Positions 1 through 15,952 of a stretch of DNA of 17,312 nucleotides are shown piece after piece (within the stretch, counting starts at the first letter, position 1; each line of letters begins with the position of its first letter). Under the pieces are notes generated by a model, which worked only from the letters and a program-made list of their open reading frames with translations, ran no database searches and was not told where the DNA came from. This DNA is from Anaerolineae bacterium (GTDB lineage: Bacteria; Chloroflexota; Anaerolineae; 4572-78; J111), in NCBI GenBank assembly GCA_020433835.1, contig JAGRBY010000087.1:1-17312 (forward strand), in the 5' to 3' direction. The position numbers and the translations under genes are program-made.

Positions 1-1240
1 TTTCAGCAGCCGTCAAATTGGGGTTGGCTTCGGCCAGCAGGGCCGCCACCGCCGCCGCGTGCGGAGTCGCCATCGAGGTACCGGATTTGGTGCTCTGCCC
101 CCCACCCAAACCTGTCGAGGTGACCAAAACCCCCGGTGCCAGCAAATCGAGGGCCGAACTGCTGTTACTGGAGCAGGCTACCTGATCGACCGTCACCAAT
201 TCATCGATGCAACTGCCCCAGTTAAAACTGCCTGAAGCGGTATCATACACATTGCCGACGGATATCATCCCGGACACGCAGCTGGGTGAGGTCATCTTAT
301 CGGCCTCGGCCCCGTTGCCCGACGCTGCAAAAATGGCGATATCAGCCTGCTGAGCCGCAGCGGCCGCGGCGGCATACAGCATTGTGTTGGCATCCGCCTC
401 ATCACACACGCCTTCATACGCACCGCCGCCCAAACTTAAATTGATGGCGGTAACGTTTAAGGTCGATTGATTAGCGATAATCCAATCGATACCCGCGATC
501 ACGTCGGAGCTGTAGCCGATGCCGTTGCTGCCCAAAACCCGCACGGCCACCAACCCGGCCCCCGGCGCAATACCCAACGGGCTAACACTACCCCGACCGA
601 CCACTATGCCGGAGACGTTCGTGCCGTGTCCGTTTTCGTCCTGAGCGCTTTCGCCTTCATCGCCGGCAGTGGAGGGACAGCTGCCCCGATTGAAGCAGTG
701 CTGAGCGACTAACGCGGGTGCGATATCGGGGTGCGTCACGTCGACGCCGGTATCCAACACCGCTATATTGACGCCGGCCCCGGTAATGCCCAAATTTTGA
801 TGAACCGCATCAGCTTTAATCAGCGCGGCACTTTCAGCCAGCGTGGCTTCAACCGGCAAATCGAGCGCGACATTTACCACATCGGGCTGAGCCAGCAACG
901 CATCGAGACCGGCTGTTGTCACCTCGCCCGATAAGCCGGGCAAAGTCCGGTAGCGATGCTCAACGCGAAACTCCGGGTCAGGCACCGCTTCCAGCACCCG
1001 TGTTTGTCGATCGTTCACTTCCCGTGCTTGAACACTAACATCGGCACTTCGCACCGGTGGGCGCAGAGCTATCATCACCCGCACCGTCGGTTCAGACGCC
1101 AAGGCAACCCGCACCTCTTCCGCGCCGGACGGCGACTGGGCCTGTACTGCCGGCTCACTCAGCGTAATAAGCGCAAACGCGGCCACCATAAAACCTATTG
1201 TGATGCGATAAAACCAATTGCGGGTTGTGTGTCGTTTCAT
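1..1240 (-). CDS. Secreted subtilisin-like serine protease (peptidase S8), C-terminus cut by window edge
   Basis: This is a secreted serine endopeptidase of the S8 family, with 413 residues visible and the 3' end outside the window. The start at 1240 gives a basic, hydrophobic signal peptide (residues 1 to about 34, ending AVQA). An I9-like propeptide region follows (about 45-145). The catalytic triad is complete: Asp163 in VLDTG, His205 in GHGTNVSG, and Ser389 in GTSMATPH. The oxyanion Asn309 lies in AASGNG. The usual second His of HGTHVAG is Asn here. The start lies 4 nt after the stop of the cohesin-TPR gene, with only a weak AAAGAG ribosome site, so translational coupling is likely. The context suggests processing or maturation of the neighbouring surface proteins, but this is inference. 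A C-terminal dockerin or other module beyond the edge cannot be excluded. The family call is secure; the substrate is unknown. Confidence 0.95.
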   Translation of the reverse strand, partial: MKRHTTRNWFYRITIGFMVAAFALITLSEPAVQAQSPSGAEEVRVALASEPTVRVMIALRPPVRSADVSVQAREVNDRQTRVLEAVPDPEFRVEHRYRTLPGLSGEVTTAGLDALLAQPDVVNVALDLPVEATLAESAALIKADAVHQNLGITGAGVNIAVLDTGVDVTHPDIAPALVAQHCFNRGSCPSTAGDEGESAQDENGHGTNVSGIVVGRGSVSPLGIAPGAGLVAVRVLGSNGIGYSSDVIAGIDWIIANQSTLNVTAINLSLGGGAYEGVCDEADANTMLYAAAAAAAQQADIAIFAASGNGAEADKMTSPSCVSGMISVGNVYDTASGSFNWGSCIDELVTVDQVACSSNSSSALDLLAPGVLVTSTGLGGGQSTKSGTSMATPHAAAVAALLAEANPNLTAAE

Positions 1241-1244
1241 AATT

Positions 1245-2201
1245 CTAGCTCTTTGGACGATCGTGTAGTTGTTGTAAAACGGTTTTGGCTGTAGCGTTGT
1301 CCGGGTCCAGGGCCAGCACACGCTGAAGACAAATTCGCTTCTCGGTTTCTTGCTGAGCAACCAGCCCTTTCCCCAACCAGGCTTCAACATTAGCCGGATC
1401 CAGTTCAATCGCCTGGCTAAACAGTTCGTATGCCTGCATAGTATGGCCCTGATCCATCGCTCGGATGCCTTGCTGACTTAGCAAAGCCGACGAGCGTGTT
1501 GAGAAGCCGCTCGCACCCGGCATGCGACGGGCTGCTGGTGACGGTGTCGCCGGTACCCGACCGCCGGACAACCGTAGACTCAAGATGACCAGTAAGATCA
1601 CGCTTAAAATTAAGCCGCCGCCAACAACAACGGTTAACCCTATCTGGTTCGATGCCGTCGAACCGGTTTCGCCGCTGCCGGCCTCGGTACCGGTGTCGAT
1701 GACCAACCCTTCGGTCTCTACCGGAATAGCCTCAAAACGCGAAGAAACCAGTTGAACATCACCAAAATCAAGGGTGTAGGGGCCGCTGCCTAAAATCTCG
1801 AAGACAATAGTTGCCAGCACACCTTCGCCCTCGATGGGCGTTGCCGAACGCAGCAGGGTAAAGGCGAAGTCAACCGTACCGGTTTCCGGGTCGGCCATAT
1901 TTTGCACAACAAAACGGTTATCGAAGGCGATTAGCGGGCCGGGTTTTATTTGGATGCCGTCAAGCCGTGTATCGTTGTCGCGCACCTTAAGCTGCGCCGG
2001 GTTGTAGCGCACCTGAAGTTCAGCACCGTACATATCCGAGACATCGGCCAAGTTGACATTGACAATCAACAACTTCTCGTCCTGCAACGGTATATTCTGC
2101 AAAGTGAGCCGTGCTGTGTTGTTAAGCTGCGGGCTAGGGGTTGTCCACAAAGGTAGTAGCAAAACCCCTAGCATTACCATAAGTTTGATCGAAAGTGCCA
2201 T
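1245..2201 (-). CDS. Membrane-anchored cohesin protein with cytoplasmic TPR tail
   Basis: This 318-residue protein has an N-terminal hydrophobic signal segment (about 5-20). An extracellular cohesin-type beta-sandwich follows (about 28-168, with the hallmark YGAELQVRYNPAQLKV). A Gly/Ser/Thr-rich spacer leads to one strong TM helix (about 187-210) and an Arg-rich juxtamembrane stretch. At the end are about two TPR units (about 240-306, with AYELFSQAIELDPANVEAW and a second DPDNATA turn). The predicted topology puts the cohesin outside and the TPR inside. Its cohesin is clearly paralogous to that of the 278-residue protein at 12392-13228: both share the YGAE..L.Y.P motif, a DG(I/V)Q motif, and an LVS....E.IP ending. 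No good ribosome site precedes the chosen ATG, and Met8 or Met10 are alternatives. It lies 45 nt after the PGRP-cohesin-dockerin gene and 4 nt before the protease, so an operon is likely. The proposed role is as a dockerin receptor linked to an internal TPR partner, which is inference. Confidence 0.85.
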   Translation of the reverse strand: MALSIKLMVMLGVLLLPLWTTPSPQLNNTARLTLQNIPLQDEKLLIVNVNLADVSDMYGAELQVRYNPAQLKVRDNDTRLDGIQIKPGPLIAFDNRFVVQNMADPETGTVDFAFTLLRSATPIEGEGVLATIVFEILGSGPYTLDFGDVQLVSSRFEAIPVETEGLVIDTGTEAGSGETGSTASNQIGLTVVVGGGLILSVILLVILSLRLSGGRVPATPSPAARRMPGASGFSTRSSALLSQQGIRAMDQGHTMQAYELFSQAIELDPANVEAWLGKGLVAQQETEKRICLQRVLALDPDNATAKTVLQQLHDRPKS

Positions 2202-2246
2202 ATTAAAAATGGGTGCTTCAGAAACACGGCTCTGTAAGTTGTCGCG

Positions 2247-4928
2247 TTACTCCGGCTGCCAACTCATAAGTGGTCCTTGTTGGTTGTAGTTGTTGGCGGC
2301 CATAACCAGATCGGTTATTTCGACCACGCCATTACCGTTGAGATCAGCGACAGGATCGTTGGAGCGGTATCTCTGTGCGATAAAACTTAAATCAAGGATA
2401 TTAACGATGTTATCCGCATTTAGGTCTCCCGCCAAGAGGGTAATTGTTCCCAAAGACATTGTTGTTAACGCTTCGTCCGTCACATGATCGACCTCCACCG
2501 GCAGCGTTTCTTCGGCGCGACCTGAAAGGTAACCGGGATAGGTAAACGTCAGCGGCAGATCGCCATCGATAGCAAACGATCCGTCGGCTTGGGTTTCAAC
2601 CTGCTGACCGTCGTTACTGCTAACCACAATACCACTGTAGTCCGAACGGCCTTGCAAGCTCAGATATCCAACGGCGCTGGCGCACGTTTGAGATACTGTG
2701 ATGGCTCCATCGATGTTGGATGAGGCGATTGCTTGCCCTTGCCCATTCGCCAAGATGACATCTTCCAGGGTAAGGTCGGTGGTGCCGGCAATGAGCGGCT
2801 TCCAATCAATGGTAATGATGGTTTGCTCACCATTAATCACACCGCTGCCGAGCAGCGTGGCAGCAAAGGTTATGCGCCCATTGGTTGTATCGACACTATT
2901 CACGGCGATAAATCCACTGGAGAAAATGCTGTCAACCGTAACCTGAACGCCGTCTCGACCGGGGTCAGCATCGATCACCTGAACGATGTTTGGATCATAG
3001 GTGAGATCGAGCTGTATTGCCTGCGCGTTCGAAACGTTGTTGACAGCCACGGTCGTGGTACCCTGCGTGCTGCACAGGGGCAAAACCAGGTTAGTCGGCT
3101 CAACTTGTACGATTGGGCCTGTCGGTGTCGGTTCGACGGTCGGTTCCACAGTCGGTTCAACGGTGGGTTCCACAGTCGGTTCGACCGTTGGTTCGACAGT
3201 GGGTTCAACCGTGGGTTCCACGGTGGGTTCCACGGTCGGTTCGACCGTTGGTTCGACAGTGGGTTCAACCGTAGGTTCGATGGTCGGCTCGTCAGTCGGT
3301 TCAACGGTGGGTTCAGTAGTGGGTGTGACAACGGGATCGCCGTTGACCACCACGGTATCAGAAGCCATACAGGCCGCAAAGCGCTCGTCGGTGGGATCTG
3401 CTGCCGTAAACTTAAAAGTATACAAACCCGGCAGGTCGGTGCCACCATACTCGCCGTCGTACTCGCCGACACGGTCGACAAAGCCGAAGCCGGTTGAGGA
3501 CTGTGTCTCAATATCATCACGCGTGACTTCCGCATTAACCTGCGCTCCACCTAACGGCGTGCCCAGATAATCGGCCAACCGAACAGTCACGTCGATGGTG
3601 TCGCCAACGTGGTACGACTCTTGGCCGAAGACGATGCCTGTAATTTGGCAGGCATGCAGTTCGGTGGGATCGCAATCATTCTTCTCATCGACCTGCTCAC
3701 GTAAGTATGGCAGTTTATTATAAATATTATCGCCCGGCGAGCTGGTCCAGGTCACATCGCGGCCGCCGGCAATCACCGGCACATCGTGACCATGATAGGG
3801 CGTGGTGGCGAGTGGATCAAGCTCTTTTTGGCCAGTTTTCCAGGCCATCAGGTGAGCGGCACTGTCGAGCATCACCTGAGACGGTTCGGCGGTGGTGAGA
3901 GACGGATTGTCACAATTGCCGTAACAGCCGATAAAGCCGATAGCCATTGAGCCGCTGTTGTAGGTATCGTGAATGCCAATCACATCATCGCCCCCGGCCC
4001 GACCTTCGTAAATAACGCCATTGGGATCAATGAGATAGTTGTAGCCGACATCGCCCCAGCGCAGCACATTGGCGTGGTAGTTCCAGACCGAGCGCACCCA
4101 GCCGGCCCAATCCTGATAAGGGTAGGTGTTGTTGGGTGTCTCTGTCTGATGAACCACAATGTGGGTGACCGGCGCGTATTGGGGAGGGCGGCGAGGGCTG
4201 TTTTGTCCTTCAGGGCAGCCCCAATTCGTACGTGAAACCACGGCTGGTTTGGCCGCCGGGCAGACGTCGTCGGTACTGCTGACGCGAGCCATCTGGCCGG
4301 CGATGTCGCCGTCGCTCGGGCCGTGGCTGGTGTCGCTAAAGACCAGCGTTAAACCGGAGAATTGCGGGGTTAGACCCGGCGTACTGCTTTCCAGCGTGAT
4401 ACGGAACTGAATGGCTGTCTGGGCTTGCCCGGCCCAGATCAGATAACCGCTGTGCAGATTATCGCGTACGGGAAAGAAAGCTTCGGGCGTGTCGAGCCAC
4501 GCGCTCCAACTGCTGCCACCGTCAACGCTTAAGCGCGTCTCCAAGCGCATGCTCGTGCCATCGGGCGTCTCTATAGCCCACAGCGGCACAATATCGGTGG
4601 TGAAGGCGAGCGGGCTAGCAATGGTGCCTGACGTATAACTACCGCTTGTCCCCGCTGCGTCTAATACCAGCCCGCCCGCGTTCACAACAACGCCATCACG
4701 CTGGCCGTTATCGGCAAAATAAGCCGCTTCGAGCGTGGTCTCTTGCGAAACAATGCTGGCCTGTCCATCAGGCGAACTCTGGGCCACGCCGCTAAAGTTG
4801 AGCTGAGCACTATCTTGCACGTGGGCCGACGAAGATTCAACCCTGACCAAAGTAAGCAAACTCAATACTACAATAAAAGCGCTGCCGGTTAACCATTTAG
4901 CCAACCGAACGAAAGATGATATCTTCAT
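2247..4928 (-). CDS. Secreted PGRP/amidase_2-fold protein with VEPT linker, cohesin and dockerin
   Basis: The protein has 893 residues from the ATG at 4928, chosen because GGAG lies 9 nt upstream and a signal peptide (about 1-35) follows directly. The frame stays open to 5042, but those 38 extra residues are not signal-like. In order it has: a beta-rich N-terminal region (about 50-220); a PGRP/N-acetylmuramoyl-L-alanine amidase domain (about 230-415); a Cys-bounded beta module (about 425-530); a VEPT linker (536-600); a cohesin (about 605-745); a carboxypeptidase-regulatory-like module (about 750-830); and a type I-like dockerin (831-893) with two calcium loops, DLNADNIVNILD and DLNGNGVVEITD. 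Of the zinc ligands, His260 in HIVVHQTE is present. The expected His of GHRD is Gly389, and the expected Cys of SCPG is Ser397. It may therefore bind peptidoglycan without cleaving it. Everything after the PGRP domain is paralogous to parts of the 765-residue neighbour. The domain calls are firm; loss of activity is inferred. Confidence 0.9.
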   Translation of the reverse strand: MKISSFVRLAKWLTGSAFIVVLSLLTLVRVESSSAHVQDSAQLNFSGVAQSSPDGQASIVSQETTLEAAYFADNGQRDGVVVNAGGLVLDAAGTSGSYTSGTIASPLAFTTDIVPLWAIETPDGTSMRLETRLSVDGGSSWSAWLDTPEAFFPVRDNLHSGYLIWAGQAQTAIQFRITLESSTPGLTPQFSGLTLVFSDTSHGPSDGDIAGQMARVSSTDDVCPAAKPAVVSRTNWGCPEGQNSPRRPPQYAPVTHIVVHQTETPNNTYPYQDWAGWVRSVWNYHANVLRWGDVGYNYLIDPNGVIYEGRAGGDDVIGIHDTYNSGSMAIGFIGCYGNCDNPSLTTAEPSQVMLDSAAHLMAWKTGQKELDPLATTPYHGHDVPVIAGGRDVTWTSSPGDNIYNKLPYLREQVDEKNDCDPTELHACQITGIVFGQESYHVGDTIDVTVRLADYLGTPLGGAQVNAEVTRDDIETQSSTGFGFVDRVGEYDGEYGGTDLPGLYTFKFTAADPTDERFAACMASDTVVVNGDPVVTPTTEPTVEPTDEPTIEPTVEPTVEPTVEPTVEPTVEPTVEPTVEPTVEPTVEPTVEPTVEPTVEPTPTGPIVQVEPTNLVLPLCSTQGTTTVAVNNVSNAQAIQLDLTYDPNIVQVIDADPGRDGVQVTVDSIFSSGFIAVNSVDTTNGRITFAATLLGSGVINGEQTIITIDWKPLIAGTTDLTLEDVILANGQGQAIASSNIDGAITVSQTCASAVGYLSLQGRSDYSGIVVSSNDGQQVETQADGSFAIDGDLPLTFTYPGYLSGRAEETLPVEVDHVTDEALTTMSLGTITLLAGDLNADNIVNILDLSFIAQRYRSNDPVADLNGNGVVEITDLVMAANNYNQQGPLMSWQPE
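3130..3321 (-). repeat. 12-bp tandem repeat coding for a VEPT linker
   Basis: About 16 head-to-tail 12-bp units of the form ggttc-n-ac-n-gt-n encode (Val-Glu-Pro-Thr)n, with Ile and Asp variants at the upstream end. The linker should be extended and flexible and separates the PGRP-side modules from the cohesin-dockerin end. A higher-order 60-bp period is visible: 3175-3212 and 3235-3272 are identical over 38 bases. This suggests recent unit duplication and possible length variation. Confidence 0.95.
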
Positions 4929-4937
4929 GGTAAAGTA

Positions 4938-4941
4938 CTCC
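4938..4941 (-). promoter_or_regulatory. Ribosome binding site that fixes the PGRP gene start
   Basis: On the minus strand, GGAG lies 9 nt before the ATG at 4928, which opens directly into a signal peptide. No comparable site precedes the farther upstream in-frame ATG at 5042. This supports the shorter, 893-residue protein. Confidence 0.75.
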
Positions 4942-5275
4942 GTAGTTAAACTAGTGAACTCAAGCGGGTTGAAATCTCCCCTCAACACCACAAGCATTCG
5001 AAATGTTAAGCCGTACCCAGAGTACCACGAGCTATCTCCCATCTCAACAAAGGTGGTGCGGAAATTTTGTATGTAACACCTTGGAGCTATATCTACGGGT
5101 TAACTCGTAGGACTGTTATACTAACTTATCCTGCCATCAAGAGAGGTTATTGTGGGGAATAGATATAAGAAGTTGTTATTAAAGCGATAAAATCTATTCC
5201 AACTATCTTCTTACCTTTAGTTCCGGCAGGCTTGTACGGGGTAGCTCTGCACTAAACCGTGGTGAAGAAAAATTA

Positions 5276-5340
5276 GACAGAATTAACATGATTTACCGAA
5301 TTATAACCAATAAAATCGTGATAATCTTGTCAATTCTGTC
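5276..5340. repeat. Long imperfect inverted repeat
   Basis: The arms GACAGAATT (5276-5284) and AATTCTGTC (5332-5340) are perfect complements. The complementarity continues inward with mismatches for roughly 20 bases per arm (to about 5298 and from about 5317). It would form a hairpin on either strand. The wording resembles the dispersed palindromes common in intergenic DNA of environmental bacteria, but other copies cannot be checked here. Confidence 0.6.
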
Positions 5341-5464
5341 GATTTTTTGTCGATCTTCCACCGTTCTCACGTCTCCACGGTTTAATGTTGTGGTACCTTG
5401 TACGGCGACAGCGAGCTTTTCCGTATTTATTGCGGCAAATGCGATATATTTGCATCCATGGAGA

Positions 5465-5499
5465 ACACGGAGCTTCCAAAATTTTGGAAAACTCCGTGT
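5465..5499. repeat. 35-nt palindrome
   Basis: The outer arms ACACGGAG and CTCCGTGT flank a perfect inner palindrome TTCCAAAATTTTGGAA, with one unpaired base on the left and two on the right. There is no T-run on either side, so it is not a good intrinsic terminator. It is more likely a dispersed repeat or a structural or operator element. Confidence 0.7.
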
Positions 5500-5608
5500 C
5501 CTACCGCTACCACAACGAGTACTTTGCTGCATAGCCAGCAGCATAAGTAGCTAACTTGCTGCCGATACCCCTATTGCTCCGTGCCTCGGCTTAGCATTTT
5601 TTGATGCT

Positions 5609-7906
5609 CTAGGGCCAGGGCGATGTAGGCCCGGATTGGCCGTAATTGCCGGCGGCCAGCGTGATATCTAAAATATCCACTTTGCCGTTACCGTCGAGAT
5701 CGGCCAGCGCATCAGGAGTTTGGAATTTGTTGGCCATATAGGCCAAATCTAAAATATCAACCTTATCATCCGTATTGATATCACCGGCCAACAGTTCGAC
5801 TGCGGCCAGGTAAACGTTCTCACCGTCAGCTTCGAGAATTTGCAGCCCCTCAGCCCGCAGATCGATCTGGCTCGACAGATAGCCCGGATGGCTGAGATTG
5901 ATGACGGTCTCGCCCGGCAGGTTGAAACTACCATTGGTTAACGTTTGGGTTTGGGTACCCGCAGAGGTGCTGACAGCTATACCCTGATAGGTACTGCGAC
6001 CCTGTAACGTTGCGCTGCTAACCACATTACAGCTAGGGGCAATTGTAACGGAACCGTTTTGGATTTCCACAGGAATGATTTCCCCATTGCTGTTTTTTAA
6101 CTCTGCCCGCACGATGGTAATAGCGCTTGAAGCGATCCGCTGTAGCCGCCAATCCATAGCAATCAGCCCATCCGGGGCAGTAGAGGTAAACCCACTCAAA
6201 CGGGTAGCGTGAAAGACAATCCGTCCCTCGCGCGTATTAACATTGTTCTCTTTGATGTCACCCGTGGCAAAGATGGGACCGATCCGAACTTGCGCACCCG
6301 GTCTACCACGGTCTGCATCAATGATTTGGATAACACTGGGATCATAGGTAATCTCTAAATATGCGCTGGTTAGATCAGTAACGGCTTCTACATTAACGGC
6401 TGTAGACACATCGATAGCGCACAGATTTGTCGCTAGACTCGGTGGTTCGATCTTCACGATAGCGGGGATAATTTCATCTTCAACAGAAACTATTGCTTGT
6501 CTGGTACACATTGTAAAATTCTCTTCAGTTGGATCTTCAGCTATTAAGTTGAAAATGTAATTACCTGAACCAGACGTGTTGGCATAGGTCAGGCTATAGG
6601 GATTAGTACCGACCAAAGTGAAAGGACCCTCTGTTCCCCCACTATTAGGCAGAGTAACGGTCGCTGTTACGTTGGCGGGCACACCGTTGGTGCCGGTTAA
6701 TGTAGCGGTGACGTTAATGGGTTCGTTGATCTGGTAACTATCTTTATCAAATACGATGCTTTCAAACGCACATGCATTAGGTGGAAGGGGCTTAACCACA
6801 ACTGTAATAGGAGCAGGAACTTGGCATTCAGAAGCGGTATTCAGAGTAAATGTGTAATCACCTGAAACAGATGTATTAGCAAAGGCAAGGGCATAGGGAT
6901 TAGTACCGGCCAGAGCGAAAGGACCAACTGTTTCCCCACCAGGTAGGGTGACAGTCGCGTTTATATCAGGTTCCAAGCCATTAGTGCCGGTTACCGTAGC
7001 GGTCAGATTGATGGTTTCATTGACAAAGTACATAAGATCCGTGTGATCAAACTCAACTGAGCTAACTGTACATTCAGAAGTAGTCGGCGGCACCACCTCA
7101 ACAGGAAGAGGCTCAGAGATGGAGCAGCCCTTGAAATTATCCTCCGGATCACTGGCGAAAACGTGAAATATATAGTCACCCAATTGTTCAGTATTAGAGT
7201 AAATGCCCACATAAGGGCCATTACCAGTGAAGGAGGGCAGATTATCTGTTCCCTCATTAGGCAAGGTAACGGTTCCGGTCACAACCGCCCCGTTTTGAAT
7301 GACACCGTCAACGGTTACATTGGCGGTTAGTTCAATAGGATCGTTTCTTTCTACAGGAGTGTTTGACGTTACGGTGATCTCACACGACGAAATCGGTGGA
7401 ACTACCGGATCTACGCGCTTCGTGGCCTGGCCCATACACGGCAGAAAGCGCTCGCCGGTGGGATCGCTCACGGTGAATTTGAAATCGTAAAAACCGGGGA
7501 GTTCGGTTTTATCATATACACCGTCGTAATCGCCGGTACGATCGATGAGACCGAAGCCGGTGGCTGATTCGGTTTCAATCTCATCTAAATTGCGGCGAGT
7601 CACATCGGCCACGACTTTGGCTCCGGCCAGTGGGTTGCCATTCATATTCGCCACCCGCACCGTAATCTCCATTGTCTCGCCCGTAACGTAAGACTCCTTA
7701 TCAAAGATGACTGCGGTAACCTGGCAGGTCTCGAGAGCAGGGGTGGGCGTGTATGTTGGCGTAGGCGTATATGTTGGCGTATACGTCGGATAGTAACCGT
7801 TTGCTAATGTAACTTGATATTGACCCGCTCCAGCGATAAACAAGGTCAAAAGCAAGCCGGCCAGCCACCATCGTATTTGTATGGTTTTGATGCGTCGTTT
7901 TTTCAT
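5609..7906 (-). CDS. Secreted multi-module protein with four Cys-paired beta modules, cohesin and dockerin
   Basis: This 765-residue protein has a basic signal peptide (about 1-36) and a short Tyr/Thr/Pro linker (about 38-57). Four tandem Ig-like beta modules follow (about 58-170, 171-275, 276-375 and 376-478). Each starts with a Cys (CQVTAV, CEITV, CTVSS, CAFES) and has a second Cys near its end, so one disulfide per module is plausible. A cohesin (about 479-622, with YLEITYDPSVIQIIDADRG) is also bracketed by Cys. A carboxypeptidase-regulatory-like module (about 623-700) and a dockerin (about 702-758) end the protein, with calcium loops DINTDDKVDILD and DLDGNGKVDILD. GAGGA sits about 8 nt before the ATG. 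The first module and the whole cohesin-to-dockerin end are paralogous to the PGRP protein. Having both cohesin and dockerin suits it to link chains together; the ligand of the beta modules is unknown. Confidence 0.88.
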   Translation of the reverse strand: MKKRRIKTIQIRWWLAGLLLTLFIAGAGQYQVTLANGYYPTYTPTYTPTPTYTPTPALETCQVTAVIFDKESYVTGETMEITVRVANMNGNPLAGAKVVADVTRRNLDEIETESATGFGLIDRTGDYDGVYDKTELPGFYDFKFTVSDPTGERFLPCMGQATKRVDPVVPPISSCEITVTSNTPVERNDPIELTANVTVDGVIQNGAVVTGTVTLPNEGTDNLPSFTGNGPYVGIYSNTEQLGDYIFHVFASDPEDNFKGCSISEPLPVEVVPPTTSECTVSSVEFDHTDLMYFVNETINLTATVTGTNGLEPDINATVTLPGGETVGPFALAGTNPYALAFANTSVSGDYTFTLNTASECQVPAPITVVVKPLPPNACAFESIVFDKDSYQINEPINVTATLTGTNGVPANVTATVTLPNSGGTEGPFTLVGTNPYSLTYANTSGSGNYIFNLIAEDPTEENFTMCTRQAIVSVEDEIIPAIVKIEPPSLATNLCAIDVSTAVNVEAVTDLTSAYLEITYDPSVIQIIDADRGRPGAQVRIGPIFATGDIKENNVNTREGRIVFHATRLSGFTSTAPDGLIAMDWRLQRIASSAITIVRAELKNSNGEIIPVEIQNGSVTIAPSCNVVSSATLQGRSTYQGIAVSTSAGTQTQTLTNGSFNLPGETVINLSHPGYLSSQIDLRAEGLQILEADGENVYLAAVELLAGDINTDDKVDILDLAYMANKFQTPDALADLDGNGKVDILDITLAAGNYGQSGPTSPWP

Positions 7907-7936
7907 TGTCTTTTCCTCGCTATGGTGTCTATTCGA

Positions 7937-7942
7937 ATTATA
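7937..7942 (-). promoter_or_regulatory. Possible -10 box for the 765-residue protein gene
   Basis: A perfect TATAAT lies on the minus strand about 30 nt upstream of the start at 7906. No good -35 element is seen at 16-18 nt spacing. The implied leader is about 25 nt long and contains the ribosome site. Confidence 0.4.
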
Positions 7943-8060
7943 CTTAGCTTATCACAGCCCATACGGCGTACTCAACAAGGCTAATGCTGAAATAGTTTGC
8001 GTGCCAATTTGTATAAGAGCATAGGTGTTAGCACGGAGAGCGTGGGTCTGTATCAGGATC

Positions 8061-8115
8061 ATAAAAGCCCGCCGGCGCGAACGAACCTTGCTCTCTTTAC
8101 GCCGACGGGCTTTAT
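8061..8115 (-). terminator. Intrinsic terminator after the 375-residue dockerin gene
   Basis: On the minus strand, GCCCGTCGGCG pairs with CGCCGGCGGGC across a 22-nt loop. The one imperfect position is a G-U wobble on this strand only. The stem is extended by A/T pairs and followed by TTTTAT. It lies about 60 nt past the stop at 8177, which suggests the 8177-9304 gene is transcribed separately from the genes beyond it. Confidence 0.65.
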
Positions 8116-8176
8116 GGATAAATCTGCTAGACTAAAGTTTCCGGAACAGTTAGCGGCTTTAGCTTTGCCCGTTTAA

Positions 8177-9304
8177 CTACAGATCATACACGGGGATAGT
8201 ACCGTCTGTGGGGCCATCGATACCGAAGTTTTGAGCCGCTATGACTAAATCGATGATATTAATGGTACCATCAAAGTTGTAGTCAAGGCTTTCCACAAGA
8301 GGAAGATCCAGCCCGTTATAATTTGCTATATTACCAAAATTAGCCACGATGATCTGGATATCAATGATGGTAACCTGATTATCATTATCAGCGTCGCCGG
8401 CCAGCATATAAACTGTATCAACATCCTCAGCAAGCGGATAGTCGATCTCAACATCAACGTAACCTAAGCGGTTAATAGTGATTTGGGTAGGCGGCGCGTC
8501 AGTCACCTCATAAGTCGGAAATGGCTGTGAGGCAGCATTGCAATAACCAAGGTGGATAACTGTAGGACTCGTTGACACTTCATTCCCTACCGGCACACGG
8601 AAACCAAAGGGACAGGGCGGTCCTTGGGCCATACCGCTTGGTTTCCCACCTTGCAGACCAACACGGAACTGACTCGGGTTGCCCACTGTGGTTACAGCTA
8701 ATGGCCCGTTTGCGGCCGCGATGGGATTGCCATTTCCGGCTTGATCAACTACGAGAGAAGCAACAGGGTCAAGACAAACTTGGGTAGGCAATCCACCGGC
8801 AATACTCCGCCACGGGATCTCAATGAGATTACCGCTACCTTCAATCGGCCCGGCGCTGGAGTTAATGTAGAAAAGATTAATCTCAAAATAGGATGGTACG
8901 GCAGCACCGGCAATAGCCGAAGCACAATGGCCGGCAGGGGCAGGAGCAATAGGGCGAATTTGGATGAGATAATCACTACCCTGAACACCTGGCACTACCG
9001 AACCTGCTTTAACATCCTGAAAGCCAAGTTGCGGAGTTAAAACAGCCGCATCATAACCAACGCTTAATGTTACCCCCCAAACTTGTTCGGCACCGTCAAC
9101 ATAGATGCGGCTGGCAGCTTTACCGCCACCAATAGGGACATTAATAGGGTTCGGTGCCCACAAAACATCGCCGGTTATGTCCGCGGCTTGTGTACTTACA
9201 TCCCCCTCCGGCTCTTGAGCGGCCGCCGGCACAACAATGACAGCAACCAGCAGCAGCGCCAATAGGAGCAGCCCGACGGGTTTCAAGAACTTCCTTCGTT
9301 TCAT
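8177..9304 (-). CDS. Secreted cohesin-like and dockerin protein
   Basis: This 375-residue protein has a strong signal peptide (about 1-29, ending PAAAQ). A cohesin-like beta region follows (about 42-210, with WGVTLSVGYDAAVLTP). A second, less clear beta region (about 212-295) holds paired Cys. The C-terminal dockerin (about 300-365) has calcium loops DADNDNQVTIID and DYNFDGTINIID. AGGAGA lies 6 nt before the ATG at 9304, which fixes the start. The dockerin positions that usually decide specificity (10 and 11 of each loop) are Ile-Ile here, against Ile-Leu or Ile-Thr in the two larger neighbours, so it may prefer another partner. The cohesin is more divergent than the other three and the call rests on general pattern. 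It has its own terminator and faces the response regulator gene across a divergent region, so joint regulation is possible. Confidence 0.83.
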   Translation of the reverse strand: MKRRKFLKPVGLLLLALLLVAVIVVPAAAQEPEGDVSTQAADITGDVLWAPNPINVPIGGGKAASRIYVDGAEQVWGVTLSVGYDAAVLTPQLGFQDVKAGSVVPGVQGSDYLIQIRPIAPAPAGHCASAIAGAAVPSYFEINLFYINSSAGPIEGSGNLIEIPWRSIAGGLPTQVCLDPVASLVVDQAGNGNPIAAANGPLAVTTVGNPSQFRVGLQGGKPSGMAQGPPCPFGFRVPVGNEVSTSPTVIHLGYCNAASQPFPTYEVTDAPPTQITINRLGYVDVEIDYPLAEDVDTVYMLAGDADNDNQVTIIDIQIIVANFGNIANYNGLDLPLVESLDYNFDGTINIIDLVIAAQNFGIDGPTDGTIPVYDL

Positions 9305-9383
9305 GTTTATTCTCCTAAAGCTAAAAATTGAATAGATATGCCCCAGTTGCTAGGGCGCGGCCGGCAGCAGGGTTCCGGAAAAT

Positions 9384-9397
9384 ATGTGCATGCACAT
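9384..9397. promoter_or_regulatory. 14-bp perfect palindrome, candidate operator
   Basis: ATGTGCATGCACAT is a perfect dyad about 80 nt upstream of the dockerin gene start at 9304, in the divergent region it shares with the response regulator. Its size and position suit a dimeric regulator such as a LuxR-type protein. There is no direct evidence for binding. Confidence 0.4.
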
Positions 9398-9602
9398 CCT
9401 TGGCCAGCTTGCTCTATTCTAGCCGGATACCTGGGTAGTTTTCAACGGTAACAGTGCGGGTAGGCTCTCCGTAATATCTATGGCCCCATTTTGCGTGGTA
9501 GTACGGAGGTACGTTGCTGTTAACCTCGCCGGCTCCCGTTTCCCGACCACCAGCCCAAAGCGGGCCATCACCAGGGCCGCAGGTACTAGGCCAAATTTCA
9601 CC

Positions 9603-9631
9603 TTGACGGGCGCGATAAGATATCTTAAGAT
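9603..9631 (+). promoter_or_regulatory. Promoter of the response regulator gene
   Basis: TTGACG (9603-9608) and TAAGAT (9626-9631) are separated by exactly 17 nt. The -10 is followed about 28 nt later by the ATG, with GAGAGGGG as the ribosome site. A perfect palindrome TAAGATATCTTA (9616-9627) overlaps the spacer and -10, so a dimeric protein bound there would block transcription. Confidence 0.6.
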
Positions 9632-9659
9632 GAAGGTAGATCTTTGAGAGGGGTTTATT

Positions 9660-10319
9660 ATGACCGCTATACGTATTCTCATTGCTGAAGACCAAACAAT
9701 ATGGCGCGATATCTACAGCCGGGTCATTGCCAATGCCGACGGTATCGAGCTGCTGGCCGCGGTAGCCGACGGCCAGACGGCGGTAGCGGCAGCCACAGAG
9801 CTTAAGCCCGATGTCATGCTGCTCGATATCCAGATGCCGAAACTAAACGGCATTGAAGCCGCCAAGCAAATTCGGGCGATTTTGCCGGAGGTGGGGTTGA
9901 TTTTGATTTCGCACCACGCCCAGCGCCAATACGCCGAAGCGTTTTTGCGCAACGGCACATCCGGCAAAGCGTACTTGCTAAAACATACGCTCAGCGAGCC
10001 GGTGGAGCTGATTCGGGCCATCGAGGTGGTAGCTGAGGGCGGCGCGATGCTTGCCCCGGAGATTCAGGACGAACTGCTTCAGTTGGCCTCGTCAACACCA
10101 TACGCCCAGCTCAACGCCTTGACCAAGCGCGAGAAGGAAGTTTTGGGGCTGATGGCCGAGGGCTACACCAACGTCAGCATCGCCAACAAAATTAGCGTTA
10201 GCGAACGCACCGTCGAAAGCCACGTCAACAACATCTTCTCTAAATTAGACCTCAGTTCCGAAGCTACCCGTAATCCGCGTGTTATGGCCGTGCTGTTGTT
10301 TTTGCAAGCCGGGCAGTAG
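9660..10319 (+). CDS. NarL/FixJ-family response regulator (REC + LuxR HTH)
   Basis: This 219-residue protein is a cytoplasmic DNA-binding response regulator of full family length. The receiver domain (about 4-120) has the acidic pocket Glu10-Asp11, the phosphoacceptor Asp56 in MLLDIQMP, the switch Ser84 and the conserved Lys108 in YLLKH. The LuxR-type helix-turn-helix (about 152-198) shows LTKREKEVLGLMAEG and SERTVESHVNNIFSKL. GAGAGGGG lies 6 nt before the ATG. The facing histidine kinase at 10865-12289 is of the HisKA_3 class that normally phosphorylates this family, so the two are the likely pair even though they are convergent rather than in one operon. Targets are unknown; the palindromes in its upstream region suggest control of itself and of the divergent dockerin gene. 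Confidence 0.95.
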   Translation: MTAIRILIAEDQTIWRDIYSRVIANADGIELLAAVADGQTAVAAATELKPDVMLLDIQMPKLNGIEAAKQIRAILPEVGLILISHHAQRQYAEAFLRNGTSGKAYLLKHTLSEPVELIRAIEVVAEGGAMLAPEIQDELLQLASSTPYAQLNALTKREKEVLGLMAEGYTNVSIANKISVSERTVESHVNNIFSKLDLSSEATRNPRVMAVLLFLQAGQ

Positions 10320-10562
10320 CGGCCTCAATTCGATCCGTTCATCTATGCAGTACGTTTAGAGATAAGGCTAAGGCTGAGGCTAAGAAAAACGTCGATTTTT
10401 TGGCCGCAAAAGGGTATCACTGCGGTATCAAAACTCTGCGTTCTAAAAAAGTGCAAACATAGTGAGCAAGCCGGGAGGATTTGTCTTTGGTTGCCTTAGC
10501 TTAATCTCCACTTGATGCAATAGCCCGGATTAATAGCCAAGTTTCTCACGCCAGGTCACCTC

Positions 10563-10687
10563 TTCCGCCGCGCCAAGGCACTTTCATCATGCTGCATACC
10601 CCTTTTCCGCCGCGCCAAGGCACTTTCTTCACGCGGCAAGCCCTGTTCCACCGCGCCAAGGCACTTTCTTCACAATGCATGCCCCTT
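10563..10687. repeat. 42-bp tandem repeat, three copies plus a degenerate fourth
   Basis: Units begin with TTCC at 10563, 10605, 10646 and 10688, giving periods of 42, 41 and 42. Each full unit carries the core CCGCGCCAAGGCACTTTC and ends in a GCAxxCCC-like segment; the fourth unit decays after TTCCGCTG. The core is nearly invariant while the second half varies. There are no CRISPR features, since the spacers are too short and similar to each other. Confidence 0.85.
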
Positions 10688-10777
10688 TTCCGCTGTGAGA
10701 ACTCTCCCCTTTTATGCCGGATGCCCTTTTAATCCGTAAAAATCATATAATCCGTGGTTACGTAAGCTGTGAGGAGC

Positions 10778-10827
10778 GTCAAAGTTTACTTTGACCCCCC
10801 AGCGTAGATGACAAAGCCAGCTTTGTC
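10778..10827. repeat. Two adjacent perfect hairpins (REP-like or terminator pair)
   Basis: GTCAAAG-TTTA-CTTTGAC (10778-10795) and GACAAAG-CCAG-CTTTGTC (10810-10827) each have a perfect 7-bp stem and a 4-nt loop. The two stems differ by one base pair (TCAAAG against ACAAAG). They lie just past the kinase stop, so they could end transcription from either side, although no clear T-run follows. A dispersed intergenic repeat is the alternative. Confidence 0.7.
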
Positions 10828-10864
10828 GCTCCGGCATGGGTTGGGTGAGTGAGGAGGGTATATC

Positions 10865-12289
10865 TCACGCCATCACAGCGGGCGCTTTGGTTTGGCGAAG
10901 ATGGTAGGTGTGCGCCTGCAAATTGGCCAGCAGGCGGCTGGGTTGGGTTACGGGTACGCGAACGTGAACCGTGGTACCCTGCCCCAGAGTGGAATCAAAT
11001 GTTAAGCGCCCGCGCCAGGCCAGCGTGCGTTCGTTCATCGACAGCAGCCCCAGATGGCCGGCCTGGCCCATCAGCACTTCCGGCCTATCGCGCAAGCCGC
11101 AGCCCGTATCCTGCACCGTAATGCTGATGGCGTTTTGGCCCCACCGCAGGTGAATGAGAACTTGATCGGCGTGGGCATGGAATAACGCGTTGTCGATGGC
11201 CTGGCGGGTGATGTAGTATAAATCCGTTTCTAATTTATCTTCGCCGATGCACTGCTCGCCGAAACCCTGGGCGGTTAAGGTGATAACCCTGGGCGCGGAC
11301 GGGGGCAGCGCCTGCTTGCCGATGGAGTCGAGATAGGCTTGCAGGGCTGCAATCAACCCCAGGTCGGTTAACACGGTGGGGTGCAAGCCCTGCGTAATTT
11401 CCCGCAAGCGCCGGTTGAGGTGCTGCGCTTCTTCCTCCAGAGCCAGCAGATTTTGCGCCACCGGGTCGGAGTCGGTGGCCAGTTGGCGGCGATTAAGGCG
11501 CAGCGACATCGACATAGTCGTCAGGCGGCTCAGGATATCGTCGTGCAGTTCGATAGCCAGGTGGCGGCGATCTTCCTGCTCGGCGTCGATGGTGCGCCGG
11601 TAGGCAAGCTGCAACTTGGTGATGGTTTCTTCCAGATCGGTTACGAGACAGGCGTTTTTGATGACCAGGGCTAACTGGCCGGTCATAAAATCGAGCCAGC
11701 GCAAGGTTGCCGGCTCAACCGCGCCGGTTTGGCGCTGTCCAAAACAGATCGCGCCGATCAGTTCGTGGCCTAAAACCAACACGGTAATGTGATCGACTTG
11801 TAATGCAAGCAAGCCCTGCCGCAGGGCGCTCTCCGGCAGGTGGAGTACCGGCTGCGGGCCATCGAGCTGGCCCACGGCAATATCAAAGGGAAGTTCGCTT
11901 AGATCGGGCGCGGGCGGCGCACCGGCTGAACGCAGCATGACCAGCACGTTATCATCGGCGCGATAGCGCCAAAGGGAAAGGTGATCGCCGGCTATGGTCT
12001 TGAATAATGTTTCGATCAGATGATCAAGGAGATGCTCCTGGTTGGATATTTCGCGCACCGTCTGGCCAAAGTGGGCTGTGGCCTGCCAGTAAGATGTCGT
12101 CTCCTGCTGGTGAATACGGTTCACGCTGGCCCCGGTCCAGACGCATAAAACGGCGACAACTAACCAAGCGATGGCGACTAAATCGGATATCGCGCCCCAT
12201 AAAAAGAGAGCCATAGGTAAGGAGATAATAAGCACCAACAGCACAACGGCTACGGCTATAAGTTTATCTCGATGATAATGGCTCTGCAT
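10865..12289 (-). CDS. Membrane histidine kinase (2 TM, GAF, HisKA_3, HATPase)
   Basis: This 474-residue sensor kinase has two N-terminal TM helices (about 10-31 and 34-54) with almost no external loop. A GAF-like sensor region (about 85-215) follows. The HisKA_3 dimerisation region (about 238-305) carries the phosphoacceptor His249 in AIELHDDILSRL, and an HATPase domain (about 350-447) ends the conserved part. The N-box Asn367 (AIDNALFHA), G-box DTGCG (394-398), GHLGL (411-415) and GQGTT are all visible, so it should be active. The start at 12289 has only a weak AAGG. It lies 102 nt downstream of a membrane-anchored cohesin gene on the same strand with no clear terminator between them, so they may be co-transcribed. 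The likely partner is the convergent NarL-type regulator. Because it lacks an extracellular domain, it must sense within the membrane or cytoplasm, or through a partner such as the adjacent cohesin protein, which is speculative. Confidence 0.94.
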   Translation of the reverse strand: MQSHYHRDKLIAVAVVLLVLIISLPMALFLWGAISDLVAIAWLVVAVLCVWTGASVNRIHQQETTSYWQATAHFGQTVREISNQEHLLDHLIETLFKTIAGDHLSLWRYRADDNVLVMLRSAGAPPAPDLSELPFDIAVGQLDGPQPVLHLPESALRQGLLALQVDHITVLVLGHELIGAICFGQRQTGAVEPATLRWLDFMTGQLALVIKNACLVTDLEETITKLQLAYRRTIDAEQEDRRHLAIELHDDILSRLTTMSMSLRLNRRQLATDSDPVAQNLLALEEEAQHLNRRLREITQGLHPTVLTDLGLIAALQAYLDSIGKQALPPSAPRVITLTAQGFGEQCIGEDKLETDLYYITRQAIDNALFHAHADQVLIHLRWGQNAISITVQDTGCGLRDRPEVLMGQAGHLGLLSMNERTLAWRGRLTFDSTLGQGTTVHVRVPVTQPSRLLANLQAHTYHLRQTKAPAVMA

Positions 12290-12391
12290 GGATACCTTGG
12301 ATGTGATTTTTAATGTTCAAAGCGTTCGGCTATCAGCTTGCAGCCGTCAGCTTTATTTCAAAGACTATAAGTAATGGCCGGCAGCGTGCTG

Positions 12392-13228
12392 TTACTTAAA
12401 AGCGCTGGGGCGCGTACCCTGTACGTGCTTGGGCGAGCCGGGTTGGTCAGAAGATGAAGCCGGCATAGAGATTTCGGTGACGGGCTTTCGAGCAGCGCCG
12501 GTGGTCGGCTGTGGTTTTTTGGTACCGCCAACCACGGCGAAAATCCCCAAACTGAGAAAGCCTAAAACGATCACGCCTATCGCTACAATCCACCACGGAA
12601 ACTCGTCATCAACTTCGACGGTGGGTTGGGCCTGATCGCTGTTAACGGCGGCTTGCGGTTGGTCGGCAACGGTCGGAGCCGACTCGCTTGGGGCGGGGGC
12701 GGCTGCGTTAGGCGCTCCATCACCCAGATTAAAGGGAACAAACTCGGCGGGAATGGTTTCCAGGCTAAAGGAGACCAGCTTAGCGTCTTCGACAACAATG
12801 GTGGCGTTGGCATCGGGTTGTAAGACGTTAAAGGTTATCCGCGCCAGCGCCCCTGTGCCACTCACCGGCGGAGCGGGGTTGAGCAGGGTTAAGGCGTACG
12901 TTACGTTTCCGGCTGCCTCATCGGCATTGTTAACCACCACAAAACCCTTGTTGGCGGGTAAGAGCGGGCCGGCTTCAACTTGAACACCGTCTTTGTCGGG
13001 ATCACTATCTTGTACCGAAAAAACGGCCGGATCGTAGGTAAGTTTGAACTCAGCGCCGTATAGTTCCGTAACGTTTTCGACGACAACATCAAGCACCAGC
13101 GTTCCCTCCGGAGCATCAACCGGCTGTAAGGAGATGCGACTGTCTTGCGCATAGGCCAGAGAAGCGCTTAAAAACAGGGTCATCATAAAGGCCATTATTA
13201 CGATAGATATTTTCATAGCATGTTTCAT
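12392..13228 (-). CDS. Membrane-anchored cohesin protein
   Basis: This 278-residue protein has a signal peptide (1-27, cleavage after AYA). An extracellular cohesin follows (about 28-168, with LYGAEFKLTYDPAVFSV and DKDGVQVEAGPLL). An Ala/Pro/Ser/Gln-rich spacer (about 171-207) leads to a single TM helix (211-234) and a short, basic and Ser/Pro-rich cytoplasmic tail. GGAGG lies 7 nt before the ATG, a strong ribosome site. The cohesin is a close paralogue of that in the TPR protein at 1245-2201, but here no TPR follows. It is a candidate cell-surface receptor for the dockerin proteins encoded to the left, analogous to anchoring scaffoldins but with a TM helix instead of SLH modules. Binding specificity is not known. 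The kinase gene follows on the same strand. Confidence 0.87.
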   Translation of the reverse strand: MKHAMKISIVIMAFMMTLFLSASLAYAQDSRISLQPVDAPEGTLVLDVVVENVTELYGAEFKLTYDPAVFSVQDSDPDKDGVQVEAGPLLPANKGFVVVNNADEAAGNVTYALTLLNPAPPVSGTGALARITFNVLQPDANATIVVEDAKLVSFSLETIPAEFVPFNLGDGAPNAAAPAPSESAPTVADQPQAAVNSDQAQPTVEVDDEFPWWIVAIGVIVLGFLSLGIFAVVGGTKKPQPTTGAARKPVTEISMPASSSDQPGSPKHVQGTRPSAFK

Positions 13229-13945: not shown

Positions 13946-15082
13946 GTGAAACTTCACGAATACCAATCAAAGCGGATTTTTGCCAAGTACGGTGTTCCCA
14001 TTCCTAATGGGGAAGTGGCAACAACTCCAGCCGAAGCCAAAGAGATAGCTCAAAAGCTAGGTGGTTCCGTCGTCGTCAAAAGCCAGGTTTTAGTCGGTGG
14101 TCGGGGCAAGGCCGGCGGCGTAAAAGTGGCTAAAGATGCCAATGAAGCGGAAGCAATCGCCGGCCAGATTTTGGGAATGGACATCAAAGGCTTAACCGTT
14201 GAGAAGGTACTAATTGACGAGACAGCCGATATCAAAGATGAGATTTATCTGGGTATCGTCATTGACCGGGCGCAGCAAAAACCGGTCATTATTGCCTCGG
14301 CAGAGGGTGGCGTTGAGATTGAAGTGGTTGCCAAAGAAAACCCAGACGCCATCAAACGGGTGGCCGTTGACCCGGTCTTTGGCCTGTTAGGTTTCCAGGC
14401 CACCAATCTGGCTTATGACTTAGGGCTGAAACGTGACATGGTCGGCCAGTTTACCAAAATCCTTAAAGGGCTGTACCAGGCCTTTATGGATGCCGATGCT
14501 AGCCTGGCTGAAATTAACCCCTTAGTTGTAACCGGCGAGGGAAAACTTTTGGCCGTTGATGGTAAAATCCTTTTGGATGATAACGCTCTATACCGTCACC
14601 CCGAACTGGCCGAAATGCGCGATATCCAAGAAGAAAGCCCATCCGAACGCGAAGCCCGTATGTCTGGTTTGAACTTCATCAAGCTCGATGGCGAAATCGG
14701 CTGTATGGTCAACGGTGCCGGTTTGGCGATGGCGACGATGGACATTGTTCAGCATTACGGCGGCTCACCGGCCAACTTCCTTGATATTGGTGGTGGTGCC
14801 AACGCCGAAAAAGTAGCTAAAGCGCTGCGCATTATTCTCCAAGACCCCAACGTAAAAAGCATCCTGTTTAATATCTTTGGTGGTATCACCCGCTGTGATG
14901 AAGTAGCCAAAGGTATTCTGGAAGCCCTCAAACAAGTTCCCACCGACGTGCCCATGGTAGCACGCCTGGTTGGCACCAATGAGGAAGAAGGTCAACGAAT
15001 TCTAGCTGAGGCCAATTTCCCCAGTGCCATCAGCCTTAGCGACGCCGCACAACAAGCTGTAGCCCTGGCAAAAGGAGCATAA
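13946..15082 (+). CDS. sucC: Succinyl-CoA synthetase (succinate-CoA ligase), beta subunit
   Basis: This is the beta subunit of the TCA-cycle enzyme that interconverts succinyl-CoA and succinate with nucleotide phosphorylation, in the cytoplasm. Its 378 residues are close to the usual bacterial length. The N-terminal ATP-grasp domain (about 2-230) shows [10 protein letters not shown], the nucleotide-binding [11 protein letters not shown] (about 50-60) and the metal-site region AEINPLVV. The C-terminal ligase domain shows [20 protein letters not shown] and [11 protein letters not shown]. It starts with GTG behind a strong ribosome site. The stop is 3 nt before sucD, so the two are translated together. 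Nucleotide preference (ATP or GTP) cannot be read with confidence here. Confidence 0.98.
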
Positions 15083-15085
15083 GAA

Positions 15086-15952
15086 ATGGGTATCTTAGTT
15101 GGGAAAAACACGCGATTAGTTGTTCAAGGGATCACCGGGCGTGAGGGAGCATTCCACACGCAGCAAATGATTGAATATGGCACCAATGTTGTGGCCGGTG
15201 TAACGCCCGGCAAAGGTGGTGAGTGGATTAACGGTGTGCCGGTGTTCGATACGGTCAAAGAAGCCGTCAGCGCCACCGATGCCAATACCAGCATCATCTA
15301 CGTACCGGCCCGTTTCAGTGCCGATGCCATTATGGAAGCCGCTGATGCCGGTATCAAACTGGTCATCTGCATCACCGAAGGCGTGCCGGTTTTGGATATG
15401 GCTCGCGTTCAGGCATTTTTGGCCGGTAAAGACGTTCGGCTTATTGGCCCCAACTGCCCCGGTTTGATTACACCGGGCGAATGCAAAGTCGGTATCACTC
15501 CAGGTCACATTCACCTGCCCGGCAATGTAGGGCTGGTTTCCCGCAGTGGAACGCTGACCTATGAAGTGGTCCAGGCTCTCACCGATAAAGGTATCGGCCA
15601 AAGCACGGCTGTTGGTATCGGCGGTGACCCGATTATCGGCACCAAATTTATTGACTGTCTGCAACTGTTCGAAAGTGATCCTCTAACCGATCAGGTCGTT
15701 CTCATCGGTGAAATCGGGGGTACGGACGAGCAGGTAGCGGCTCAATTTATTGCCGACCACATGAGCAAACCGGTTACGGCCTTTATCGCCGGTCGTACCG
15801 CACCTCCCGGAAAGCGTATGGGTCACGCCGGAGCCATCATTCAAGGTGGTGAAGGTACAGCGGAAGAAAAGATCAGAGCGCTTGAGGCCGTTGGCGTTAA
15901 AGTTGCCGACCTGCCTACCGAAGTGGCGGATATTGTCGCCAGCCAAATGTAG
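15086..15952 (+). CDS. sucD: Succinyl-CoA synthetase (succinate-CoA ligase), alpha subunit
   Basis: This is the CoA-binding and phosphohistidine-carrying subunit of succinyl-CoA synthetase, 288 residues as expected. The CoA-binding Rossmann domain begins with [13 protein letters not shown] (about 12-24). [19 protein letters not shown] (about 119-137) and SRSGTLTYE (152-160) are family signatures. The active-site His247 lies in RMGHAGAI, with [10 protein letters not shown] following. The ribosome site AAAGGAG is inside the end of sucC. A strong hairpin terminator follows about 65 nt after the stop. Confidence 0.98.

Follow-up and report, generated by a model that had tools for sequence, protein, structure and literature searches.

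The stretch of DNA analysed here, hereafter the window, comprises 17,312 nt of contig JAGRBY010000087.1 from an Anaerolineae bacterium (assembly GCA_020433835.1), and its focal part (1245–13228) holds five genes, termed P1 to P5, whose products carry cohesin modules, dockerin modules, or both. Modules were identified with Pfam, with profiles derived from relatives, and by profile-profile comparison. All five genes lie on the minus strand, where the order of transcription is P5, a histidine kinase, P4, P3, P2, P1, and a subtilase. The Pfam family Cohesin was matched above its cut-off in P1 (1245–2201, E 7.7e-9), P2 (2247–4928, E 4.3e-9), and P5 (12392–13228, E 5.9e-11); Dockerin_1 was matched above the cut-off in P3 (5609–7906, E 3.8e-5) and below it in P2 (E 4.2e-4) and P4 (8177–9304, E 0.0024). 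As a control of specificity, the same families were found in one (Cohesin) and two (Dockerin_1) of 14 well-known genomes. Each of the five proteins carries a single cohesin or cohesin-like module at most, i.e., no tandem cohesins were present, and the Pfam scan of the nine window proteins matched no glycoside hydrolase (E up to 1) and no cellulose-binding module. A preliminary description, made from the sequence alone, had reported five such genes within 12 kb and no glycoside hydrolase, and both observations held in the hidden Markov model searches that it had proposed. Gaps of only 45 bases between P2 and P1 and 4 bases between P1 and the subtilase were calculated from the coordinates, and hence these three genes probably form one operon. 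Operon limits were not drawn from promoter- and terminator-like sites because these were about as frequent in the window as in shuffled sequence.

The modules of P2 were read from Pfam matches and from an alignment with 18 homologues. In brief, an N-terminal module is followed by a peptidoglycan recognition protein (PGRP) module (3693–4262), an immunoglobulin (Ig)-like module (3342–3671), a PT-repeat linker (3114–3341), a cohesin (2688–3113), an X module (2439–2678), and a C-terminal dockerin (2250–2438). Residues 606–893 were modelled by AlphaFold with high confidence (predicted local distance difference test (pLDDT) 90.3), and the top Foldseek match of this C-terminal model was 3kcp_A (E 3.8e-19), i.e., the model resembles the cohesin-X-dockerin end of the cellulosomal scaffoldin CipA. 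The X-dockerin part matched X-dockerin dyads titled type II, and the profile of the in-chain cohesin likewise matched type II chains (3l8q_A, 5g5d_A). P3 has the same C-terminal order, with four Ig-like modules (approximately 6479–7735), a cohesin (6038–6460), an X module (5801–6019), and a dockerin (5615–5794). Its cohesin fell below the Pfam cut-off (0.031); scored with profiles from relatives of P2, the cohesin, X module, and dockerin of P3 reached 115, 59, and 93 bits, respectively. In P4, a divergent cohesin-like module (approximately 8801–9166) precedes a C-terminal dockerin (8207–8407) in which both dockerin loops are present. The P4 cohesin had no Pfam match and aligned to the cohesin profile in hhalign with a probability of 97% (E 8e-11, single comparison); its AlphaFold model, built from five sequences, reached a pLDDT of 39 and was not used, and so it is the profile comparison that supports the identity of this module. 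The preliminary description had correctly placed a cohesin and a dockerin on each of these three secreted chains and had called the P4 cohesin divergent, but it had overlooked the X module that precedes the dockerins of P2 and P3.

The PGRP module of P2 was matched by Amidase_2 (Pfam, 8.3e-13) and by PGRP chains in the PDB (best E 1.7e-13), in agreement with the PGRP fold noticed earlier; the state of its active site had gone unnoticed. Zinc in PGRPs and N-acetylmuramoyl-L-alanine amidases is held by two histidines and a cysteine. At the catalytic positions of P2 (H260, Y298, G389, S397) the first histidine is kept, and G389 and S397 replace the other two of the three zinc ligands. In the following, relatives are denoted by G numbers for genomes and L numbers for the stretches fetched from them. 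Among 64 PGRP rows, comprising homologues found with the cohesin-X-dockerin region and fetched relatives, the second histidine and the cysteine were both lost in 63, some of which are identical or almost identical proteins and hence not independent cases; the exception (L166) carries neither cohesin nor dockerin. By comparison, the genome scan described below gave loci with 80 PGRP rows, L001 and L002 from one organism among them, and 74 of these rows keep both residues. The P2 PGRP is thus probably a binder rather than an amidase, and judging by its fold its ligand would be peptidoglycan; in that case, a fold known from an enzyme would have become the binding part of a scaffold. L002 is a second protein of that organism, Anaerolineales bacterium H5_CFX7, with a PGRP that has lost the same zinc ligands and without a cohesin or dockerin match.

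P1 and P5 each present a secreted cohesin on a transmembrane (TM) helix, as had been described before; hydropathy placed the helices at residues 189–207 (1581–1637) and 214–232 (12533–12589), respectively. In P1, the cohesin (approximately 1713–2069) is followed on the other side of the helix by a C-terminal TPR part (approximately 1356–1472; TPR_11, 2.9e-7) that is predicted to be cytosolic and that the preliminary description had missed, and orthologues of P1 were found in L001, L144, L146, L150, and L157. The TPR part (AWLGKG..AQQ..EKRIC) appeared strongly conserved among the relatives by eye, which hints at a fixed cytosolic partner. In P5, the cohesin (12776–13117) and helix are followed by a short basic tail ending in RPSAFK, a motif shared by four of six P5-type relatives; a search with P5 listed 120 proteins with the window's own at the top. 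All cohesin matches of the anchor cohesin profile in the PDB (E up to 0.1) were scaffoldin or anchoring chains, nearly all of them titled type II. In a tree of 43 cohesins, from which domains shorter than 110 residues or scoring below 30 bits had been left out, the 16 anchor-type cohesins (TM, TM-TPR, and LysM) formed one group (support 92/85) and the 12 TM and TM-TPR rows another within the same tree (support 100/96), with the short L157 row counted as TM though its helix is unconfirmed. This separate group only suggests that roles are divided between anchor and in-chain cohesins.

The subtilase gene at 2–1240 (minus strand) runs off the window edge; its product matched Peptidase_S8 (Pfam, 1e-39), has the catalytic residues D163, H205, and S389, and belongs to the set by synteny. 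The fetched relatives contain nine S8-matching frames, eight of which have a dockerin at the end (L001, L144, L146, L149, L150, L157, L158, L167), among them the L167 subtilase, which is 88.9% identical to that of the window over 270 residues, and the window subtilase very probably ends in an X-dockerin as well. The ninth frame (L166, genome G021) is 31% identical and has no dockerin, and G021 was also without a dockerin or anchor-cohesin match. The catalytic Asp, His, and Ser were present in nine of nine aligned subtilases, the window included and L166 left out. Cargo had previously been read as a PGRP-fold domain and Ig-like modules rather than plant cell-wall enzymes; these modules and the lack of plant-wall enzymes in the window were confirmed, and the protease had been missed. 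Elsewhere in the relatives, dockerins were found on M23 peptidases (L157, L188), a CAP protein (L169), further subtilases (L189, L190), alpha/beta hydrolases (L187 and, weakly, L145), a MauG-type peroxidase (L167), a multihaem cytochrome (L178), and beta-propeller proteins (L171, L172, L175, L182); only part of the dockerin census matches were family-scanned, and a few of the scanned proteins had no informative family. The di-haem peroxidase (L167, 1594–3396) has an N-terminal X-dockerin and lies directly downstream of the dockerin-bearing subtilase, the cytochrome (L178, 1226–3052) is c7/c3-like, and the beta-propeller proteins, from several genomes, are 1218–1261 residues long and combine DUF7948, SBBP repeats, and a C-terminal dockerin.

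The census of modules was based on genomes of relatives and not on the window's own assembly. Anaerolineales bacterium H5_CFX7 (L001) emerged from a scan of a genome collection with the P2 alignment, in which the best 80 of 514 relatives were retained. In this genome, a cohesin-dockerin protein, P5, kinase, regulator, P4, P3, P2, P1, and an X-dockerin subtilase follow each other in window order. Past the subtilase, the L001 locus continues with a protein that carries a cohesin, two LysM domains, and, by eye, a lipobox; this cohesin-LysM protein extends the locus in three relatives and adds a second kind of anchor to the membrane base proposed before. L144 and L146 repeat the L001 order, with the LysM protein not seen in L144, and L150 has no separate P3 or P5. 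The same gene set was thus found in related genomes, where it had been suggested to look for it. Within the order-level Anaerolineae group, 16 of 25 genomes had a match to the P2 profile (E up to 1e-30), and PGRP, cohesin, and dockerin on a single frame were found in 11 of the 25 in the stretches fetched. In the class-wide search with the P2 profile, in which three candidates were scored per genome and absences are hence weak, it was only in the order-level group that matches reached further than the PGRP part. In G204 (L170), a cohesin gene lies next to that of a PGRP protein in which the cohesin and X matches are weak and a dockerin is present. Dockerins of the window kind are not confined to the order-level group, because 11 of the 24 genomes (out of 298) with class-wide dockerin matches at E up to 1e-20 lie outside it. 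The distant genome G002 (L048) has cohesins and dockerins of its own and was excluded as a member on account of its different architecture; a 1466-residue protein of this distant Chloroflexota genome (L229, 3234–7634) combines SpoIID, an amidase with an intact GHRD..CPG, Ig, and a dockerin.

Dockerins (A2 profile) and cohesins matching the anchor profile (A6) occurred together in 15 of the 25 order-level genomes and were both missing from eight; G010 had dockerins only and G012 a cohesin fragment only (Fisher p 7e-5 over the 25 genomes, which are related, so that independence is overstated). Of all dockerin genes per genome, 5 of 10 (G001), 6 of 8 (G009, with two matches in one gene counted once), and 6 of 9 (G011) lay inside the locus of 13–17 kb. 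This clustering is beyond chance, with p below 1e-7 in each genome by a rough estimate that assumes uniform placement, in three genomes chosen after the locus had been seen.

The dockerins share several features. The specificity positions of the calcium loops, taken here to be 10 and 11, read IL or IF in 70 of the 101 matches to the loop, at least one of which is spurious. Type I dockerin pairs of Clostridium differ from these hydrophobic residues. Of the 39 proteins with a dockerin of at least 60 bits, 35 have a C-terminal motif of N, Q, K, or S, then Y or F, three to four residues, and GP or AP, and 27 have a tryptophan among the last eight residues. Because loop residues and C-terminal motif are uniform, one shared specificity is suggested. 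With one cohesin and one X-dockerin per chain, the sequences would permit the head-to-tail chain growth considered in the preliminary description, and docking of the X-dockerins on the anchors may be expected by analogy with the cellulosome; which cohesin accepts which dockerin is a matter that we infer.

Between P4 and P5, a LuxR-type response regulator (9660–10319, plus strand, i.e., opposite to the rest of the locus) and a HisKA_3 histidine kinase (10865–12289, minus strand) were identified by Pfam, the latter with two N-terminal TM helices by hydropathy and a weak GAF match (GAF_3 below cut-off). The preliminary description, which rightly saw a compact non-cellulosomal locus, had not counted this two-component system, shared with some relatives, as part of the gene set. 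Kinase and regulator were present in the locus in G001, G009, G011, and G017 and not in the fetched stretches of the other seven genomes; they are placed as in the window in L001, L144, L146, and L150, and also in G015. The latter is the closest genome, with kinase, regulator, and P5 on one contig at 79–86% DNA identity to the window, and the central part of the locus falls on a break between its contigs. In G017, the locus kinase is split over two reading frames (L150, 3030–4571). Two genes at 13946–15952, tentatively read by us as sucC and sucD, flank the locus in the window as in G009, G011, G013, and G014. Between P3 and P2, an imperfect palindrome of about 158 bases (5240–5397) has the appearance of a dispersed repeat of the miniature inverted-repeat transposable element type; it folds far better than shuffles (z −5.9) and accounts for 43 of 54 window matches in G015. 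No RNA family was found in the window with Rfam, and a search of a viral fold library gave nothing of use.

On balance, we lean towards a surface assembly that is built on cohesins and dockerins but is not cellulosomal; it would have a protease as cargo, include peptidoglycan-binding modules, and hold the protease against bacterial wall material. Cohesin-dockerin contacts would act as the glue, following the logic of the cellulosome on a different substrate. Cohesins would be presented by P1 and P5, in relatives also by the LysM lipoprotein, and X-dockerin proteins (P2, P3, and the neighbouring subtilase; in relatives an M23 peptidase and others) would dock on these anchors. P2 and P3 would be adaptors whose own cohesin recruits a further dockerin protein, and the P2 PGRP, having lost its zinc site, would bind peptidoglycan in a role equal to that of the cellulose-binding module of a scaffoldin. 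The wall material would most likely be that of other cells or debris. The modules, the fold of the P2 end, the synteny and co-occurrence, the intact protease residues, and the lost zinc ligands were computed, and the architecture of the locus is well supported; the assembly function and the substrate are what we infer from them. The observation of the preliminary description is hence confirmed, and its interpretation is partly supported.

Several results weigh against this reading. The wall bound by the PGRP may be that of the cell itself, and the loss of the PGRP zinc ligands is not strictly linked to cohesins and dockerins: both ligands are lost in L043, as in L002, without a cohesin or dockerin match, and both are kept in L048, where a dockerin is present. 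In-chain and anchor cohesins are both type II-like by sequence, and because both match type II chains, cohesin type does not decide pairing. The A6 anchor profile also picks in-chain cohesins, with all three matches in G019 on frames that hold dockerins. Many dockerin proteins outside the locus are beta-propellers or cytochromes with no link to wall digestion, and one of G015 (L185) combines DUF5060 with an agarase-type binding domain, a possible glycoside hydrolase, if a weak candidate. P1 to P5, subtilase, and LysM anchor were found on one stretch only in L001 and L146, only P4 and P2 lie together in the fetched stretches of G024, G025, and G026 (with anchors and a dockerin-bearing protein, in G026 a subtilase by Pfam, on another contig of G024 and G026), and no more than 4 of the 11 genomes have the two-component system within the locus.

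The main rival, which we consider possible and clearly the less probable of the two, is a structural envelope scaffold, in which cohesin-dockerin contacts would link the membrane with the wall or sheath of the cell itself, PGRP and LysM would hold its own peptidoglycan, the Ig-like modules would be spacers, and the subtilase would trim or mature surface proteins. Anchors in the membrane (P1, P5), with LysM in relatives, a PGRP without zinc site, and P3, which combines Ig-like modules with cohesin-X-dockerin and has no enzyme, would all suit such a scaffold, and the predicted cytosolic TPR and the two-component system linked in some relatives fit envelope sensing. However, both module kinds occur in only 15 of the 25 order-level genomes, which argues against a general envelope part, and the dockerin-bearing M23, CAP, and hydrolase proteins of the relatives resemble secreted enzymes.

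A more far-reaching form of the surface assembly, a machine dedicated to bacterial biomass with a CipA-type scaffoldin, is offered tentatively and is somewhat less probable still. Here, the PGRP without amidase site would be a targeting module in place of the cellulose-binding module, cellulases would be replaced by proteases and peptidoglycan peptidases, and the TM cohesin with its cytosolic TPR would report dockerin occupancy, with a linked two-component system in some lineages. Its standing was lowered because only 4 of the 11 relatives have that system in the locus and because anchor and in-chain cohesins are both type II-like. That the cohesins and dockerins of the window organism have separate, unconnected functions in adhesion and form no pairs with each other is unlikely; the hydrophobic specificity positions (IL/IF in 70 of 101), which differ from the Clostridium type I pairs, would agree with it, but genomic co-occurrence, clustering, and matches to known interacting X-dockerin and cohesin kinds on both sides speak against it. 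A true cellulosome fragment with glycoside hydrolases elsewhere in the genome, for which the scaffoldin-end fold of P2, the DUF5060 protein of G015, and a dockerin protein of the distant G002 that weakly matched Glyco_hydro_cc could be quoted, is very improbable and was rejected, as the window proteins have no cellulose-binding module, tandem cohesins, or glycoside hydrolase by Pfam and, besides the G015 candidate, no glycoside hydrolase family was found in the scanned part of the order-level dockerin census.

Bacteria that digest plants provide the best-known cohesin-dockerin scaffolds; outside cellulosomes, cohesin and dockerin modules occur widely, but a system that can be read from them is rare. 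The favoured surface assembly shares with CipA of Clostridium thermocellum (PDB 3kcp, 4fl4) the cohesin fold, the order cohesin-X-dockerin with its module folds, the X-dockerin dyad at the scaffold C-terminus, and separate surface proteins with cohesins that match type II chains. It differs in having one cohesin per chain, no cellulose-binding module, anchoring by TM helix or LysM, and cargo that comprises a protease and peptidoglycan-related proteins, and in the P2 model the modules are arranged differently relative to one another (root-mean-square deviation 18). Animal PGRPs of the PGLYRP1 type (PDB 27aa, 1yck) are alike by sequence and in having Ser in place of the zinc Cys, and are not known to act as amidases; they keep the GHRDV histidine, whereas the relatives here as a rule have Gly or Ala and are fused to Ig-cohesin-X-dockerin. 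The non-cellulosomal cohesin of Archaeoglobus fulgidus (PDB 2xdh) is an archaeal module.

The nearest proposals for bacteria are the planctosome, a hypothetical non-cellulosomal cohesin-dockerin complex of freshwater Planctomycetes for peptide degradation with an adaptor that likewise holds both modules (PMC6461901), and the lyticome, an extracellular multi-enzyme complex for bacterial cell lysis proposed from dockerin-bearing wall hydrolases (PMC6403190). The planctosome is anchored by a lamin tail domain and has M12B and M14 peptidases, and neither an X module nor a PGRP is mentioned in the parts of that paper cited here (PMC6461901); the window has TM proteins as anchors and, next to them, a peptidase of family S8. 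The lyticome, also a dockerin-based complex against bacterial walls, is presented in the cited part as a concept with no locus described (PMC6403190), and the dedicated machine outlined above would, if true, be its first concrete candidate. A subtilisin-like S8 protease of C. thermocellum with a double dockerin is presumed to stay attached to the cell surface by means of a dockerin-cohesin contact; unlike that of the window, it is part of a cellulosome and has two dockerins, with no X module mentioned in the cited part (PMC12484212). Five curated Anaerolineae genomes and UNI-1 were reported, in the portion cited, to have no cohesin or dockerin (PMC4877987); an elaborate set is now found in another lineage of the class. 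Titles and abstracts of the open-licence literature contained no description of the window locus among the matches listed. The whole set in one locus makes the use of cohesin-dockerin chemistry on bacterial wall material, be it for attack or for organisation, testable with few proteins, and new X-dockerin pairs may serve protein assembly. The kind of system is already known, since planctosome and lyticome have been proposed (PMC6461901, PMC6403190) and dockerin proteases described (PMC12484212); what is new here is that adaptor, anchors, cargo, and a likely targeting module come together in one conserved locus.
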